Of a stretch of 64,000 nucleotides of DNA, positions 20,170 through 42,744 are shown piece after piece. This DNA comes from Sporichthya brevicatena (lineage in GTDB: Bacteria > Actinomycetota > Actinomycetes > Sporichthyales > Sporichthyaceae), in contig NZ_BAAAHE010000015.1 of assembly GCF_039525035.1 (NCBI RefSeq), positions 77,012-141,011 of the forward strand. The letters are read 5' to 3'. The notes under the pieces were generated by a model. It ran no database searches. It saw only the letters and a program-made list of their open reading frames with translations, and was not told the origin of the DNA. How positions within the stretch are numbered: the first letter of the stretch is position 1; every line of letters begins with the position of its first letter. The position numbers and the translations under genes were made by a program.

Positions 20170-20200
20170 CGCCCCGTCCCGTCAGCAACCTCGCCCTGTC

Positions 20201-20219
20201 AAAAAAGGGTGTCACCCTT
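20201..20219 (-). terminator. Intrinsic-type terminator after hisH
   Basis: A perfect inverted repeat, AAGGGTG-T-CACCCTT (20205-20219), lies between the convergent ATPase gene and hisH. Read leftward, the stem runs directly into six Ts, giving a classical stem plus U-tract for the his transcript. Read rightward, there is no T-tract, so the signal favours the his side. An operator cannot be excluded because the repeat is perfectly palindromic. Confidence 0.65.
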
Positions 20220-20220
20220 G

Positions 20221-20859
20221 TCAGGCAGCATTAAGGGTCTTCAGCCAGTTGCGGAGCAGGGCGGCGCCGGCGTCCCCGGACTTCTCCGGGTGGAACTGGG
20301 TCGCGGACAGCGCCTCGTTCTCGACGGCGGCGACGAAGGGCTCGCCGTGCTCGGCCCACGTCACCTGCGGGGGCTTGAACGGGCCGGTGGCCTCGAGCGT
20401 CCAGGCCCGCGCCGCGTAGGAGTGGACGAAGTAGAACCGCTCGTTCTCGATCCCCGCGAACAGGCGCGAGCCCTCGGCCGCGGTGACGGTGTTCCAGCCC
20501 ATGTGGGGCAGCACCGGCGCGTGCAGGCGCTCGACGGTGCCGGGCCACTCCGCGCAGCCTCGCGTCGTCACGCCGTGCTCGACGCCGTACTCGAACAGGA
20601 TCTGCATACCGACGCAGATGCCGAGCACCGGGCGGCCGCCGGCGAGGCGGCGGCCGATGATCTCGGGCCCGAAGACCTGCTCGAGGCCCTTCATGCACGC
20701 CTCGAACGCCCCGACGCCGGGGACGACGAGGCCGTCGGCCTCCTGCGCCGCCCGCCGGTCGGCGGTGACGGTGACGTCCGCCCCGGCGCGCTCCAGGGCA
20801 CGCTCGGCGGAGCGGAGGTTGCCCGACCCGTAGTCGAGGACGACGACGCGGGGGCTCAC
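20221..20859 (-). CDS. hisH: Imidazole glycerol phosphate synthase, glutamine amidotransferase subunit
   Basis: Class I glutamine amidotransferase, 212 residues, that supplies ammonia to HisF for imidazole glycerol phosphate formation in histidine biosynthesis. It begins [13 protein letters not shown]. The nucleophile Cys is in [16 protein letters not shown] and the His/Glu of the triad are in [10 protein letters not shown]. The GTG start overlaps the hisB stop (GTGA). It is the last gene of hisD-C-B-H. Its partner hisF, and hisA/priA, which normally follow, are not here: the siderophore locus begins 51 bp downstream. Confidence 0.97.
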
Positions 20860-25424: not shown

Positions 25425-27692
25425 ATGGCGATCACCGCGGACCCCGGGCCGCCCTCCACTGCGCCCGCGCCCCCGGCCCCGGCACCTCCCCGCGAGGCAC
25501 TCCGGACCTGGGGCCGGTTCGTGGCCCGGCGGCCGCGGCGCGTGCTCACGGCGGCCCTCGTCGCGGTGGTGGCCTTCGCCGCGCTGACGCCCGTGTTCCT
25601 GGCCCGCGTCCTCGGCATCGGCTACGACACCCCGGGCTCGGAGTCCGCGCGGGCGACGGCAGCGGTCGAGCAGGCGCTCGGCGCGCAGGAGGCCGTGCTC
25701 CTGGTGCTGTCCTCGACGGAGCGCACGTCCACCGACCCGACCTTCACCCGGGCGATGGACGCCGCGCTGGCCGTGGTCCGGGCGAACGACGGCGTGGTCG
25801 ACGTGCCGCCGGCCGACCTCGCCGGCCGTGTCTCGCCGGACGGCCGGGTCGAGTACCGCACGGTGCTGCTGTCCGGCGACGCCGGCGACCGGCAGAAGAC
25901 CGCGAAGGAGCTCAAGCACGACCTGGAGGAGCTGGACGCCTCCCCGCTCGGCGGACCCGACATCGAGATCGGGCTGTCCGGGGAGAGCCCGTTCTTCGTC
26001 GACCTGCTCCACTCCGAGGAGGAGGGGCTGGCGATGGCCGAGGCGATCGGCCTGCCGCTGGCGATGCTGATCCTGTTCCTGACGCTCGGCTCGATCCTCG
26101 CTGCCGGACTGCCGGTGCTGACCGGGCTCGCCGGGGCGGTGGTCGCCCTCGGCGTCCTCGGCGCGGCGAGCTTCTGGACCGAGTTCGACATCTTCGCCGA
26201 GAACGGTGTCGTGATGCTCGGCATCGCCGTCGGCATCGACTACGCGCTGCTCATCGTCCGCCGCTACCGCGAGGAACGCACCCGCGCCGGCGCGGAGATC
26301 GCGCTCGCGACGACGATGGCCACGGCGGGCCGGACGGTGGTGTTCTCCGGGCTCACCGTCATGGTCGCGCTGCTCCCGATGGCCCTGCTCGACGTCCCGA
26401 CGTTGAGCAAGTACGCCCTCGCCGGTCTGCTCGGCGTCGCCGGGTCGGTCGCGATGGCGCTGATCCTGCTGCCCGCGCTGCTGGCGGTGATGGGCGACCG
26501 CGCCCTGACGGTCCGTCTGAAGCGGATGCGCGAGCGCGGCTTCGAGGCCGGCGGCGCCTCCGACCGCTGGGACCGTCTCGCGCGCTGGGTGATGAAGTGG
26601 CCGGCGGCCGTCCTGACCGTCGGCACCTGCGTGCTGATCTGTGCCGCGGCGCCGCTGATCGACGTCAAACAGGGCATCGATCTGAACGTGCGGGCCTACG
26701 AGGACGAGCCGTCGGTGCGGACCCTGACCACGCTCTCGTCCGCGTTCCCGGGCATCACGCTCGGCCGGGTCGAGGTGGCCGTGGCCGGGGACCGCGACGC
26801 GGCGGCGACCGCCGAGCGGATCCTCGCCGAGGACTCGCGGCTCACCGGCGTCGCCGTCCAGGAGCTCGACGCGGAGTCGTTCCTCGTCACCGGCAACCTC
26901 ACCGTCCCGGACGACTCGAAGGCCGCCGAGGACGTCGTGAAGACCGCGCGCACCCGCCTCGACGCCGAGCTGGGCTCAGCCGCCGACGCCGACGTCGGCG
27001 GCACGACCGCGCGCAGCATCGACTACGCGGACAAGGTCCTCGACAAGACCCCGCCGATCGTCATCGCGACCCTCGCGCTGTGCTTCCTGCTGCTGCTCGT
27101 CATGCTCCGCAGCCCGGTGCTCGCGCTCAAGGCCGTGATCATGAACCTGCTCTCGATCGCCGCCGCGATGGGCCTGACGGTCTGGGTCTTCCAGGAGGGC
27201 AACGGCGAGAGCCTGCTCGACTTCTCCTCCCCCGGCTATCTCCAGGCCTGGCTGCCACTCACGCTGTTCGTGATCCTGTTCGGCCTGTCCATGGACTACG
27301 AGGTCTTCCTCGTCACCCGCATCCGCGAGGAGTACCTCCGCACCGGCAGCAACACCGAGGCCATCGCCGCGGGCCTCGCCAAGACCGGCGGTGTCATCAC
27401 CTCCGCCGCGCTGATCATGATCGCCATCTTCGGCGCGTTCATGATCTGCCCCGCCCCCGAGATCAAGCAGCTCGGCTTCGGCCTCGCCGCCGCGGTTCTC
27501 ATCGACGCCACGATCATGCGCGCGTGCCTCGTCCCCGCGTTCATGAAGCTCGCGGGCGGGGCGAACTGGTGGTGCCCCCGCTGGCTAGACCGCATCCTGC
27601 CGCGGCTGGAGCACGGCGAAGCGCCGACCTCCCCTGCACTGGAGATGTCATCTCCACTGCAGGCGGGACGTCAGCGGGATCGGGCGCTATGA
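25425..27692 (+). CDS. MMPL family transporter (RND superfamily)
   Basis: Inner-membrane RND-type transporter, 755 residues, the length of a simple MmpL without large extra domains. Layout: TM1 about 33-53, an extracytoplasmic domain to about 195, a cluster of helices (IGLPLAMLILFLTLGSILAAG onward) with the conserved GIAVGIDYALLIVRRYREE, a second soluble domain, then a second cluster with LFGLSMDYEVFLVTRIREEY. The paired GIDYALL/SMDYEVFL motifs with charged followers mark both MMPL domains. Such proteins export lipids or drugs; the substrate is unknown. ATG at 25425, preceded by GAGGAGG at about 12 nt, is chosen because the 45 residues before it look non-coding. The stop codon sits in the loop of an inverted repeat. 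Confidence 0.9.
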   Translation: MAITADPGPPSTAPAPPAPAPPREALRTWGRFVARRPRRVLTAALVAVVAFAALTPVFLARVLGIGYDTPGSESARATAAVEQALGAQEAVLLVLSSTERTSTDPTFTRAMDAALAVVRANDGVVDVPPADLAGRVSPDGRVEYRTVLLSGDAGDRQKTAKELKHDLEELDASPLGGPDIEIGLSGESPFFVDLLHSEEEGLAMAEAIGLPLAMLILFLTLGSILAAGLPVLTGLAGAVVALGVLGAASFWTEFDIFAENGVVMLGIAVGIDYALLIVRRYREERTRAGAEIALATTMATAGRTVVFSGLTVMVALLPMALLDVPTLSKYALAGLLGVAGSVAMALILLPALLAVMGDRALTVRLKRMRERGFEAGGASDRWDRLARWVMKWPAAVLTVGTCVLICAAAPLIDVKQGIDLNVRAYEDEPSVRTLTTLSSAFPGITLGRVEVAVAGDRDAAATAERILAEDSRLTGVAVQELDAESFLVTGNLTVPDDSKAAEDVVKTARTRLDAELGSAADADVGGTTARSIDYADKVLDKTPPIVIATLALCFLLLLVMLRSPVLALKAVIMNLLSIAAAMGLTVWVFQEGNGESLLDFSSPGYLQAWLPLTLFVILFGLSMDYEVFLVTRIREEYLRTGSNTEAIAAGLAKTGGVITSAALIMIAIFGAFMICPAPEIKQLGFGLAAAVLIDATIMRACLVPAFMKLAGGANWWCPRWLDRILPRLEHGEAPTSPALEMSSPLQAGRQRDRAL
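27634..27662. repeat. 29-bp inverted repeat in the 3' end of the MMPL gene
   Basis: Two 14-bp arms (27634-27647 and 27649-27662) around a single T, complementary at 13 of 14 positions. It lies in the last 60 bp of the coding region and encodes part of the unconserved C-terminal tail. It precedes a second hairpin at 27668-27711. Confidence 0.8.
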
Positions 27693-38603: not shown

Positions 38604-41600
38604 GTGAGCCAGTACCGCGCCGTGCCGCCCCAGGTGGACCTGCCCGCCCTCGAACGCGAGGTCCTCGCGTTCTGGACCGACGCCAAGGTCTTCGAGCGCA
38701 CCATCGACGCCACGGCCGACGGCCCGCTGTGGGTCTTCTACGAAGGCCCGCCGACGGCCAACGGCATGCCCGGCACCCACCACGTCGAGGCGCGCGTCTT
38801 CAAGGACGTCTTCCCGCGCTTCAAGACGATGAAGGGCTACCACGTCCCCCGCAAGGCGGGCTGGGACTGCCACGGCCTGCCGGTCGAGCTCGCGGTCGAG
38901 AAGGAACTCGGGTTCTCCGGCAAGGGCGACATCGAGGCCTACGGGGTCGCGGAGTTCAACGCGCGCTGCCGCGAGTCCGTGCACCGCCACGTCGACGCCT
39001 TCGCGCAGATGACCGAGCGCATGGGCTACTGGGTGGACCTGTCCTCGGCGTACTGGACGATGGACCGCGCCTACGTCGAGAGCGTCTGGTGGAGCCTGGC
39101 GAAGATCTTCGACGACGGCCGGCTGGTCCAGGATCACCGCGTCGCGCCGTACTGCCCGCGCTGCGGCACCGGTCTGTCCGACCACGAGCTGGCCCAGGGC
39201 TACGAGACGGTCGTCGACCCGTCGGTCTACGTGCGTTTCCCGTTGACCAGCGGTCCGCACGCCGGGGCCGCCGACCTCCTGGTCTGGACGACGACTCCCT
39301 GGACGCTGGTCTCCAACACGGCGGTCGCCGCCCGGGCGGACGTCACCTACGTGCTCGCGCAGCCGGCCGACGGGAGCACGCCCGTCGTCGTCGCGGAACC
39401 GCTCGTGGCGTACGCGCTCGGCGAGGGCGCGCAGGTGCTCGCGTCCTTCCCCGGCGCCGAGATGGAGCGCTGGCACTACGCGCGCCCGTTCGAGTTGATC
39501 GCGTTCCCCGACGGCGCGGACACCCACTTCGTCGTGCTCGACGACTACGTCACCACCGAGGACGGCACCGGTCTGGTCCACCAGGCCCCGGCCTTCGGTG
39601 CCGACGACCTTCGGGTCTGCAAGGCCTACGGGCTGCCGGTGGTCAACCCGATCACCTCGGACGGGCACTTCGCCCACGACGTCCCACTCGTCGGCGGGCA
39701 GTTCTTCAAGAAGGCCGACGAGGCCCTGGTGGCGGACCTGCAGAGCCGCGGCGTGCTGTTCAAGCACGTCGCGTACGAGCACGCGTACCCGCACTGCTGG
39801 CGCTGCCACACGGCGCTCATCTACTACGCGCAGCCGTCCTGGTACATCCGCACGACCGAGGTGAAGGACGAACTACTCCGCGAGAACGAGCGGACGACCT
39901 GGTACCCCGACACCATCAAGCACGGCCGCTACGGCGACTGGCTGAACAACAACATCGACTGGGCCCTGTCCCGCAACCGCTACTGGGGCACGCCGCTGCC
40001 GATCTGGCGGTGCGAGGAGGGCCACCTGCGCGCCGTCGCGTCGATGGCGCAGCTCGGCGAGCTCGCCGGTCGCGACCTGTCGGACGTCGACCCGCACCGC
40101 CCGTACATCGACGACGTCACCTTCGCCTGCGAGACCTGTGGCCACCAGGCCCGCCGCGTCCCCGAGGTGATCGACGCCTGGTACGACTCGGGCTCGATGC
40201 CGTTCGCCCAGTGGGGCTACCCGCATCAGGGCGTCGCGGAGTTCGAGAAGGCCTACCCGGCGCAGTTCATCTGCGAGGCGATCGACCAGACCCGCGGCTG
40301 GTTCTACACGCTGATGGCGGTCGGGACGCTGGTCTTCGACCGGTCCTCGTACGAGAACGTCCTCTGCCTCGGGCACATCCTCGCCGAGGACGGCCGCAAG
40401 ATGTCCAAGCACCTCGGCAACATCCTCGAGCCGATGCCCTTGATGGACCAGCACGGCGCCGACGCCCTGCGCTGGTTCATGGCCTGCTCGGGCTCGCCCT
40501 GGTCGGCCCGGCGCGTGGGCCACAACGTCCTGCAGGAGATCGTCCGCAAGTCGCTGCTGACGTACTGGAACACCGTCGCCTTCCAGTCGCTCTACGCCCG
40601 CACCGCGGGCTTCGAGCCGGGCGTGACCGCCGCTCCCCCGGTCGCCGAGCGGCCGGCGCTGGACCGGTGGGCGATCTCCGAGGCCCACCGCCTCGCGCAG
40701 GGCGTCGACGCGGCGTTGGAGGACTTCGACACCCAGAAGGCCGGGCGGCTGCTCGCGGCCTACGTCGACGACCTGTCGAACTGGTACGTGCGCCGCAACC
40801 GCCGCCGGTTCTGGGCGGGCGACCCGGCCGCGCTCGCGACCCTGCACGAGTGCCTGTACGTCGTCACGCTGCTGATGGCCCCGATCACCCCGTTCATCAC
40901 CGAGCGGGTCTGGCAGGACCTGTTCCGGCCGACCAGCCCGGAGCTGCCGGACTCGGTGCATCTCGCGGCGTGGCCGGCGGTCGACGGCGCGCTGATCGAC
41001 GACGACCTCGCGGCCCAGGTGGCCCTCGCACGGCGCCTGGTCGAGCTGGGGCGCGCGGCGCGGGCCGACAGCGGGGTGAAGACCCGTCAGCCGCTCTCGC
41101 GGGCCCTCGTGGGCGCGCACGGCTGGTCCACGCTCTCCGAGGATCTCCGCACGCAGATCGCCGAGGAGCTGAACGTCACCCGGTTGGAGTCGCTCGCGGA
41201 GGCCGGCGGCGACCTCGTCGACTACTCGGCGAAGGCCAACTTCCGCGCGCTCGGCAAGCGCTTCGGCAAGGGCACCCAGCCGGTCGCGGCCGCGATCGCG
41301 GCGGCGGACCCGGTGGCGCTGGCGGCCGAGCTGCGCGCCGGCCGCCCGGCGACGATCGTCGTCGACGGGCAGGAGATCACCGTCGACGCGGACGAGGTCG
41401 TCATCACCGAGACGCCCCGCGAGGGCTGGTCGGTGGCTCGCGAGGGCGAGACCGTCGCCCTCGACCTGACGATCACGCCGGAGCTCCGCCGGGCCGGTCT
41501 GGCCCGCGAGGCCGTCCGCGTCATCCAGGAGGCCCGCAAGACCTCCGGCCTGGAGGTCGCCGACCGGATCACCCTGGAGTGGCACGCGGCCGGTGAGGAG

Positions 41601-41750
41601 GCCGTCGCGGCGCTCCGCGAGCACGCGGACCTGGTCGCCGGCGAGGTCCTCGCGACCTCCGTCGCCGAGCTGGCCGAGGCCCCGTCCGGTGACGGGGTCA
41701 CCAGCACCGACGCCGAGCTCGGCATGACCTTCCGGATCACCAAGGCCTGA
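38604..41750 (+). CDS. ileS: Isoleucyl-tRNA synthetase, type 2, with altered HIGH motif
   Basis: Class I synthetase, 1048 residues, charging tRNA-Ile. WVFYEGPPTANGMPGTHH near residues 43-60 holds the signature, which reads GTHH rather than HxGH; KMSKHLGN near residue 600 is the KMSKS loop. The central editing domain (VWTTTPWTLVSNTAV) is present. The long C-terminal region fits the eukaryote-like IleRS2 type typical of actinobacteria. GTG at 38604 is chosen: GGAGGAA ends 7 nt upstream and homology starts at once (QVDLPALEREVLAFW). The open frame upstream is the T-box leader. It runs rightward, opposite to the flanking dcw and lspA-dnaE groups. Confidence 0.97.
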   Translation: MSQYRAVPPQVDLPALEREVLAFWTDAKVFERTIDATADGPLWVFYEGPPTANGMPGTHHVEARVFKDVFPRFKTMKGYHVPRKAGWDCHGLPVELAVEKELGFSGKGDIEAYGVAEFNARCRESVHRHVDAFAQMTERMGYWVDLSSAYWTMDRAYVESVWWSLAKIFDDGRLVQDHRVAPYCPRCGTGLSDHELAQGYETVVDPSVYVRFPLTSGPHAGAADLLVWTTTPWTLVSNTAVAARADVTYVLAQPADGSTPVVVAEPLVAYALGEGAQVLASFPGAEMERWHYARPFELIAFPDGADTHFVVLDDYVTTEDGTGLVHQAPAFGADDLRVCKAYGLPVVNPITSDGHFAHDVPLVGGQFFKKADEALVADLQSRGVLFKHVAYEHAYPHCWRCHTALIYYAQPSWYIRTTEVKDELLRENERTTWYPDTIKHGRYGDWLNNNIDWALSRNRYWGTPLPIWRCEEGHLRAVASMAQLGELAGRDLSDVDPHRPYIDDVTFACETCGHQARRVPEVIDAWYDSGSMPFAQWGYPHQGVAEFEKAYPAQFICEAIDQTRGWFYTLMAVGTLVFDRSSYENVLCLGHILAEDGRKMSKHLGNILEPMPLMDQHGADALRWFMACSGSPWSARRVGHNVLQEIVRKSLLTYWNTVAFQSLYARTAGFEPGVTAAPPVAERPALDRWAISEAHRLAQGVDAALEDFDTQKAGRLLAAYVDDLSNWYVRRNRRRFWAGDPAALATLHECLYVVTLLMAPITPFITERVWQDLFRPTSPELPDSVHLAAWPAVDGALIDDDLAAQVALARRLVELGRAARADSGVKTRQPLSRALVGAHGWSTLSEDLRTQIAEELNVTRLESLAEAGGDLVDYSAKANFRALGKRFGKGTQPVAAAIAAADPVALAAELRAGRPATIVVDGQEITVDADEVVITETPREGWSVAREGETVALDLTITPELRRAGLAREAVRVIQEARKTSGLEVADRITLEWHAAGEEAVAALREHADLVAGEVLATSVAELAEAPSGDGVTSTDAELGMTFRITKA

Positions 41751-41776
41751 CCCGCATCGCCACGGCCTGGCCCCGC

Positions 41777-41912
41777 GGGATGACGTCCCGCACGGGGTGC
41801 CTGTCAGCCCTCGTGCGGGCTGACACCCCCCTGCTCAGGGATGACGTCCCGCACGGGGTGCCTGTCAGCCCTCGTGCGGGCTGACACCCCGGGCGCCCGG
41901 GACGTCATCCCG
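41777..41912. repeat. Duplicated 53-bp palindromic (REP-like) element downstream of ileS
   Basis: Two identical 53-bp copies (41777-41829 and 41838-41890) separated by 8 bp, followed by an inverted copy of the first 13 bases (GGGACGTCATCCC, 41899-41911). Within each copy CCCGCACG pairs with CGTGCGGG and TGTCAGCC with GGCTGACA, so a unit can fold into nested stems. It lies in the 262-bp gap between convergent ileS and divIVA. No protein coding is apparent. Confidence 0.85.
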
Positions 41913-41948
41913 CAGTGGGAGCGGGGCCGCAGAGCTGCTGCAGACGCG

Positions 41949-41980
41949 AAGGAGCCCGGCCTCGTCGGGCCGGGCTCCTT
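41949..41980. terminator. Strong bidirectional terminator between ileS and divIVA
   Basis: A 13-bp perfect inverted repeat, AAGGAGCCCGGCC and GGCCGGGCTCCTT, with a 6-nt loop, located between the two convergent stop codons. The stem is flanked by A/T pairs that provide short T-ends on both strands. It is the strongest hairpin seen in the window. Confidence 0.85.
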
Positions 41981-42012
41981 CGACGTCGACTAGCGAGGTC
42001 GTACGGGGGTGA

Positions 42013-42744
42013 TCAGCCCTCGTCCTCGTCGATCAGGAAGCCGCGCATCGGCTGACGCGGCGTCGTCGCCGCGGGCCGAGCGGCCGCCGACCGCGGACCG
42101 TTCGAGAGGTTCTCGCCCTCGGCGCTGTTCTCCAGCTGCCGGAGCTGCCCCTCGAGGAAGCTCTTGAGGCGGCTGCGGTACTCACGCTCGAACTGACGGA
42201 GCTGGTCGAGCTGGGTCTCCAGCGCGGTGCGCTGGGTCTCCAGGACACCGATGATCGAGCGGTGCTTGTCCTGGGCGTCCCGCTCGAGGGCGTCGGCCTT
42301 GGAGCGCGCCTCGCGCTCGATGGCCTCCGCGCGCTGCCGCGCGTCGCCAACGATCTTGTTCGCCTCCGTGCGGGCCTCGGCGATGGCCTGGTCAGCGGTC
42401 TGCTGAGCCAGCGCCAGCACGCGGGCCGCGCTGTCGGACGAGCTCGCCTCGACCGCGGCCGGCGCCGGGGGCGCGGGAGCGGGCTTGGGGGGCTCGGGCG
42501 CGGGAGGCGGCTCCGGCGCCTTGACGACGGGCTGGGGCGCGGTCGTGGAAGCAGCCGGTGCCGCCGACGCGGCCCGGGTGGCGGCGGCGAGCTTGGCTCG
42601 CAGCTCGTCGTTCTCCCGGATCAAGCGCCGAAGCTCGGTCTCGACCTCGTCGAGGAAGGCGTCAACCTCATCCTCGTCGTAGCCCTCGCGCAGACGGACG
42701 GTCGTGAACTGCTTGTTCCGCACGTCCTCGGGGGTCAGCGGCAT
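42013..42744 (-). CDS. divIVA: DivIVA/Wag31 polar growth and septum-site protein
   Basis: Coiled-coil cytoskeletal protein, 243 residues, that marks negatively curved membrane and directs polar cell-wall growth in actinobacteria. It opens with the DivIVA domain MPLTPEDVRNKQFTTVRLREGYDEDEVDAFLDEV, read in two parts, which includes the membrane-binding loop. A Pro/Ala linker spans about 65-105, followed by a second coiled coil (residues 115-205) and a short Arg/Pro tail. GAGGTG lies just upstream of the ATG. It is the last gene of the dcw-associated run. Confidence 0.97.
   Translation of the reverse strand: MPLTPEDVRNKQFTTVRLREGYDEDEVDAFLDEVETELRRLIRENDELRAKLAAATRAASAAPAASTTAPQPVVKAPEPPPAPEPPKPAPAPPAPAAVEASSSDSAARVLALAQQTADQAIAEARTEANKIVGDARQRAEAIEREARSKADALERDAQDKHRSIIGVLETQRTALETQLDQLRQFEREYRSRLKSFLEGQLRQLENSAEGENLSNGPRSAAARPAATTPRQPMRGFLIDEDEG

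Follow-up and report, generated by a model that had tools for sequence, protein, structure and literature searches.

REP-like elements of bacteria are usually put down to RAYT transposases or regarded as selfish DNA in decay. In Escherichia coli, the BIMEs are mosaics of alternating palindromic modules, with a variable number of units and a 3' intergenic location. REPINs, known from Pseudomonas fluorescens SBW25 and others, are REP doublets that form hairpins, and the pairing of their spacers is kept by compensatory changes (PMC3116915). REPs tagged with GTAG or CGTC lie mainly between convergent and unidirectional open reading frames, in the convergent case often no more than 20 bp from both 3' ends; their ends sometimes supply a stop codon, and some copies are intragenic (PMC3733652). 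The same study describes CGTC REPs as having no dedicated transposase and reports these repeats from five phyla, which do not include Actinobacteria (PMC3733652).

The doubled palindrome behind the ileS gene of Sporichthya brevicatena, in the 64-kb stretch of DNA analysed here (the window), is probably a two-unit copy of a dispersed nested-palindrome element, A-B-a, which is restricted to the genus and resembles REPINs and BIMEs at gene 3' ends.

Structure of the doubled element behind ileS

The element occupies the gap between ileS (isoleucyl-tRNA synthetase, 38604-41750, forward strand, start approximate) and a convergent DivIVA/Wag31-like gene (42013-42744, reverse strand, named from reading its sequence), and starts 26 nt after the ileS stop codon. 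The architecture given in the preliminary description is confirmed throughout 41777-41911: two identical 53-bp copies (41777-41829 and 41838-41890) are separated by 8 bp, and an inverted 13-mer, GGGACGTCATCCC, follows the second copy at 41899-41911. On the forward strand, the first module A has its core, GGGATGACGTCCC, at 41777-41789, within a 21-nt quasi-palindrome (41773-41793), and the first module B (41802-41825) is a hairpin of 9-bp arms and a 6-nt loop, TGTCAGCCC-TCGTGC-GGGCTGACA. The second A core (41838-41850) and the second B (41863-41886, with the same loop) repeat this order, and a module a on the reverse strand (41899-41911), whose core is the reverse complement of A, closes the element with a GCAG end at 41915. 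The copy in the window reads A-B-A-B-a, which is two units. Its proposed ability to fold is borne out by RNA folding of 41748-41992 and by single-stranded DNA folding of 41773-41915, both far above shuffled sequences (z -8.4 and -7.1, respectively).

What had been called the true terminator at 41949 is indeed a separate GC-rich hairpin (41947-41982, forward strand) with 15-bp, 100% complementary arms, and is likely the terminator of ileS and divIVA; the T-run of a classical terminator is missing from it. Such T-run terminators are rare in GC-rich actinobacteria. A scan of 41600-42100, with terminators that have no T-run outside its reach, found no T-run after either the hairpin or the element, which removes the element from the Rho-independent (T-run) class. 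A known RNA family is likewise ruled out, since no part of the window matches Rfam at gathering score. The GC-rich hairpin is also present in a close relative and in a Sporichthya metagenome-assembled genome (MAG), both of which have no doubled unit. With this neighbouring conserved hairpin present, the element after ileS would be redundant and not needed there.

The repeat unit, its copy number and its range

Three genomes of the genus are compared: G000, from which the window comes, its close relative G001, and a third, G002. The natural unit is A-B-a, of ∼82 bp, repeated with a 60-61 bp period. Because all parsed units share the A-B-A/a geometry, the 53-mer is a segment cut from the 61-bp period: the identity of the two copies stands, but not their standing as the natural repeat. 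Module A is the quasi-palindrome (CTGC)GGGATGACGTCCC(GCAG), a is its reverse complement, and module B is TGTCRGCCC-N6-GGGCYGACA. All 68 units parsed from regions of G000 and G001 and from the window have the same layout, in which 11 or 12 nt separate A from B, the B loop measures 6 nt, and a further 11 or 12 nt lead to A or a; the parser would accept other spacer lengths, and the B pattern allowed loops of 3 to 8. The exact 13-mer is found at 60 of the 68 first-position cores, the bases flanking the cores are mostly CTGC or GCAG, and most outer core pairs are inverted (A...a). Modules lie about 30 bp apart from centre to centre, a distance that would correspond to nearly three helical turns.

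A search of G000 with a 146-bp query gives 81 alignments, both strands counted. By pattern count, the exact A core occurs 98 times in G000, 30 times in G001 and once in G002; chance is excluded because the reversed-pattern control has no match in the face of these 98 cores. The B hairpin pattern occurs 55 times per strand in G000, 11 times in G001 and three times in G002 (controls: none). In G000 these modules make up 43 elements, of which 15 have more than one unit; the 13 elements in G001 all consist of a single unit. The version in G002 has diverged: its consensus core is GGGACGACGTCCC, and the pairing about B extends further. Trained on 27 units, a covariance model finds the family in all three genomes of the genus. 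In the two genomes (G003 and G004) of the only other genus sampled in the family and order, there is no match at E 1e-4 and one marginal match at 5e-4, and a class-wide search of 296 genomes at E 1e-6 with stricter filters finds the family in three. A literature search found no paper with the cores as strings, and no title on such an element in Sporichthya.

The preliminary description had named one finding that would refute it: a unique sequence whose conservation is confined to the ileS 3' region. This explanation has practically no probability left: the family is dispersed over 43 elements in the genome, the 80 named ileS loci of other actinobacterial records, the Sporichthya MAG included, hold no convincing match (best E 0.47), and nothing was found in its favour. 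In the C-terminal part of IleS, the nearest named relatives are that MAG, with 91% identity, and then one with 67%, which places the window most likely in Sporichthya; the window's own record may be left out of this comparison.

Placement relative to genes

With genes called by a simple codon-usage gene caller, 42 of the 43 elements in G000 lie between called genes: 21 are in tandem gaps, 20 in convergent gaps, one is in a divergent gap, and the remaining one is inside a gene. Against the 164 tandem, 58 divergent and 40 convergent gaps of 30 nt or longer in these regions, the elements are enriched in convergent gaps (p 2e-8) and depleted in divergent gaps (p 2e-4); these p values are approximate, as element gaps were subtracted by hand and two elements share one gap. 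With the divergent and the intragenic element left out, the element starts within 36 nt of a stop codon in 37 of 41 cases (median 12), and in six elements the gene caller placed the stop codon on the TGA within the A core. Many convergent gaps are nearly filled by the element. Two solitary A cores were inspected, and both are behind called genes. At L080:6149, a G000 site, the A core of the element provides the final codons and the stop of the preceding gene, and by eye the gene seems to end Thr-Ala-Gly-stop both there and at the G001 site (L121).

The fixed sequence dyads and the constant distance of ∼30 bp between their centres might also be those of operator sites for one transcription regulator. 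This is very improbable, as the elements sit behind genes, with only one of 43 in a promoter-bearing divergent gap, and their spacers share ancestry between loci.

Conservation at orthologous sites

Eleven units can be compared at orthologous sites of G000 and G001. In the A cores, 5 of 286 positions have changed, three of them through an A/a orientation flip, although the choice of G001 sites via exact A cores favours A conservation; B is outside that choice, and its stems without position 5 differ at 1 of 176 positions. Position 5 of B differs in 5 of 22 cases, the loops at 18 of 66 positions and the spacers at 34 of 254. Taken together, the cores differ at 6 of 462 positions, compared with 52 of 320 for spacers plus loops (p about 1e-15).

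It is conceivable that the elements act at the RNA level only, as bidirectional intrinsic terminators or 3'-stabilising hairpins in which folding alone matters. Strong folding (z about -6 to -8) and a location immediately after stop codons and within convergent gaps, which are often nearly filled, are consistent with this. However, the A loop, TGACG, and the B arms have a fixed sequence, and no T-run follows. At position 5 of B, one side changes and the other does not compensate (A-T 28, G-T 21, A-C 18 and G-C 1 among the 68 units), and the outer bases, CTGC and GCAG, show no more covariation than shuffles do. Two pairing schemes, one with three separate hairpins and one in which A and a form a single long stem, likewise stayed within the level of shuffles across the outer bases, the cores and B, with part of the spacer bases outside the schemes. 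Conservation driven by pairing alone is rejected on this ground, and the RNA-only explanation as a whole is improbable. Since the cores are kept, spacing and loop length are fixed and pairing shows no covariation, the pattern points to sequence-specific recognition and not to hairpin formation alone.

Gain, loss and copying between loci

The insertion polymorphism for which the preliminary description proposed a check exists between G000 and G001, both as presence or absence and as a difference in unit number. At the ileS site there are two units in the window and one in G001, and three other sites show the same difference. Alignments were obtained for 24 orthologous sites (18 of 20 tried and 6 of 25 tried in a second set); G001 has the full unit at 11 of them and not at 13, a ratio biased by the fact that 18 of 28 G001 regions were picked by their own A cores. 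G001 sites that miss the unit often have a solitary A or a, or a half (TCCCGCAG or CTGCGGGA), beside the junction. The 8-mers CTGCGGGA and TCCCGCAG, which have only six occurrences in the window, are direct repeats common to A and a, so that 61 bp may be gained or lost by slippage between them.

One intact A-B-a (L071:6245-6316 in G000) lies in frame within a biotin carboxylase-type gene, and the G001 protein has a 22-residue gap at this point. The direction of this change is not proven, because G002-G004 gave only distant, paralogue-level matches to the gene (42-51% identity); two PDB alignments of the carboxylase are not usable across the inserted stretch. Spacers and loops are also alike between loci: with one unit taken from each of 43 loci, 52 pairs are at least 70% alike, against a shuffle maximum of 2, and 8 are at least 80% alike, against none in shuffles, a likeness to which the semi-conserved GCAG and CTGC spacer ends contribute. 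The loci L067 and L087 have identical variable parts and different flanks, L067 abutting an N gap.

These observations bear on the idea of a purely selfish, non-autonomous MITE or REPIN, which has lost its transposase or has one that goes unrecognised, and which is found behind genes since insertion elsewhere is harmful. The in-frame carboxylase copy missing from G001, the spacer likeness and the L067/L087 pair (with the N gap at L067) speak for it. So does the half-A sequence that remains at five unit-less G001 sites, which is reminiscent of the asymmetric excision scars described for REPINs (PMC3116915). On the other side, in old orthologous copies the cores persist, and it is the spacers and loops that diverge. 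The RAYT-type domain Y1_Tnp (PF01797), whose search had been suggested, is absent from all three genomes of the genus, while controls are positive in 5 of 14 genomes. Of the traits of a MITE, the inverted ends are present, and inspection by eye of the 24 aligned sites, whose empty counterparts have diverged, gave no clear case of a target-site duplication. The selfish explanation is for these reasons unlikely, though the strongest of the rivals. As for the small mobile unit envisaged in the preliminary description, the carboxylase copy and the spacer likeness between loci support it indirectly; neither a transposase of the PF01797 family nor a clear target-site duplication was found.

At two places, elements enclose other DNA. 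At L095:6466-7842, a gene with an AbiEi_4 domain (P0001) has an ABAB array on one side and an inverted BaBa array on the other; at the orthologous site in G001 this gene is missing, and other short repeats (CTTCACCGGC...) are present. With this domain and its absence from G001, the gene looks like cargo or chance, not like the transposase of an autonomous element. At L073:6428-7154, two elements that share the B loop GCAGGA are separated by ∼0.7 kb, in which there are an uncalled small open reading frame and another long inverted repeat.

Comparison with REPINs, BIMEs and tagged REPs

The A-B-a element shares several traits with REPINs as described in PMC3116915: two short, conserved palindromic ends, inverted and a constant distance apart (71 bp in REPINs, 60-61 bp in A-B-a), with a less conserved spacer between them; nearly identical units in tandem arrays; lone ends left as remnants; and an intergenic, multicopy distribution. 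It differs in having a second conserved palindrome, B, in mid-element, and in a spacer pairing without compensatory changes (no covariation excess in two pairing schemes, taking in the outer bases, the cores and B). The element is moreover limited to one genus of Actinobacteria, and that genus has no RAYT. With the tagged REPs it has in common the placement at gene ends, core-supplied stop codons and an intragenic copy, and with the CGTC REPs among them the lack of a detected dedicated transposase (PMC3733652). Membership of the GTAG- or CGTC-tagged families is rejected, as the tag must form an unpaired foot (PMC3733652) and the feet here are mostly CTGC or GCAG; a CGTC does occur, within the A module and not at the hairpin foot. 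Because both the tag and a RAYT were looked for and neither was found in the form required, the element is not filed under these families.

The likeness to BIMEs lies in the alternating palindromic modules, the variable number of units and the 3' placement. In contrast with BIMEs, A-B-a has other sequences, a strict A-B-A order, a fixed module spacing and no known binding protein. The assignment to a REP/BIME type made in the preliminary description is apt for an element that is short, palindromic, dispersed, multicopy, polymorphic and placed behind genes as singles or arrays, and falls short at the missing RAYT and GTAG/CGTC tag. The element is best read as a new REP-like variant that works like a REPIN or BIME.

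Other palindrome families in the same genomes

Further families (types 2, 3 and 4) of long or nested palindromes occur in these genomes, mostly behind genes. Type 2 (GGGTGACACCCCTTACTGCGCAGTAAGGGGTGTCACCC; AAGGGTGACACCCCTTAC...) resembles A-B-a in its outer-inner-outer layout and in lying, within the same species, chiefly at the 3' ends of genes; it differs in its unrelated outer sequences, shorter unit and higher copy number, with 86 + 84 half-sites in G000, 65 + 66 in G001 and none in G002-G004. A short type 2 form (TGTCAAAAAAGGGTGTCACCCTTGTCA) is found in the window at 20194-20222, between two convergent genes. A palindrome of the third family (TGCACTGGAGATGTCATCTCCACTGCA) is near the 3' end of a gene at 27636-27660, with tandem copies elsewhere, e.g. 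L075:3506-3597. The fourth family (GTCCGACGATGTGG...CCACATCGTCGGAC) is seen in G001 at L103:1902-1941, L104:19088-19127, L105:16979-17018 and L110:16294-16333, often directly after stop codons.

Different families can face each other at one site. Opposite the G000 element at L083, the G001 site (L123) has a different hairpin. In the Sporichthya MAG, the gap between ileS and divIVA carries an unrelated nested palindrome, CACCCCCGAAAGCGCAC...GTGCGCTTTCGGGGGTG (L147:3748-3830), which adjoins the same terminator-like hairpin as at ileS in the window.

A possible role at gene 3' ends

For the genus-restricted A-B-a element, the most likely role, judged from sequence, would be to close genes off in both directions, as a module at their 3' ends whose sequence is recognised. 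Units would be copied to new loci by some process, and a 61-bp unit would double or collapse via slippage between the CTGCGGGA and TCCCGCAG direct repeats of A and a. The cores would be kept because a putative sequence-specific nucleic-acid-binding protein reads them, and the element, being symmetric on both strands, would act as a putative terminator or insulator for gene ends on either side. The complete absence of the element from several G001 sites counts against this reading, as do the second hairpin after ileS, next to which the element is dispensable, and the lack of a transposase linked to it.

A more specific and speculative proposal, of low probability, is that A-B-a may be a double-stranded DNA docking array of three dyads, regularly spaced at ∼30 bp or some three turns of the helix, on which a putative sequence-specific Sporichthya protein would mark and seal gene 3' ends, with a spread independent of Y1 transposases. 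If this were true, palindrome families of unrelated sequence could replace one another as cassettes in a single task at 3' ends: opposite an element, a G001 site can have another palindrome, and a third lies behind ileS in the related MAG.

The family is REPIN-like in a genus without a detected Y1 transposase, and its old copies keep their cores while the loops drift, which makes recognition at the level of the host or of a factor directly testable. Should elements of several families swap at the same gene ends, this would amount to a natural experiment on the requirements of a gene 3' end in GC-rich actinobacteria.
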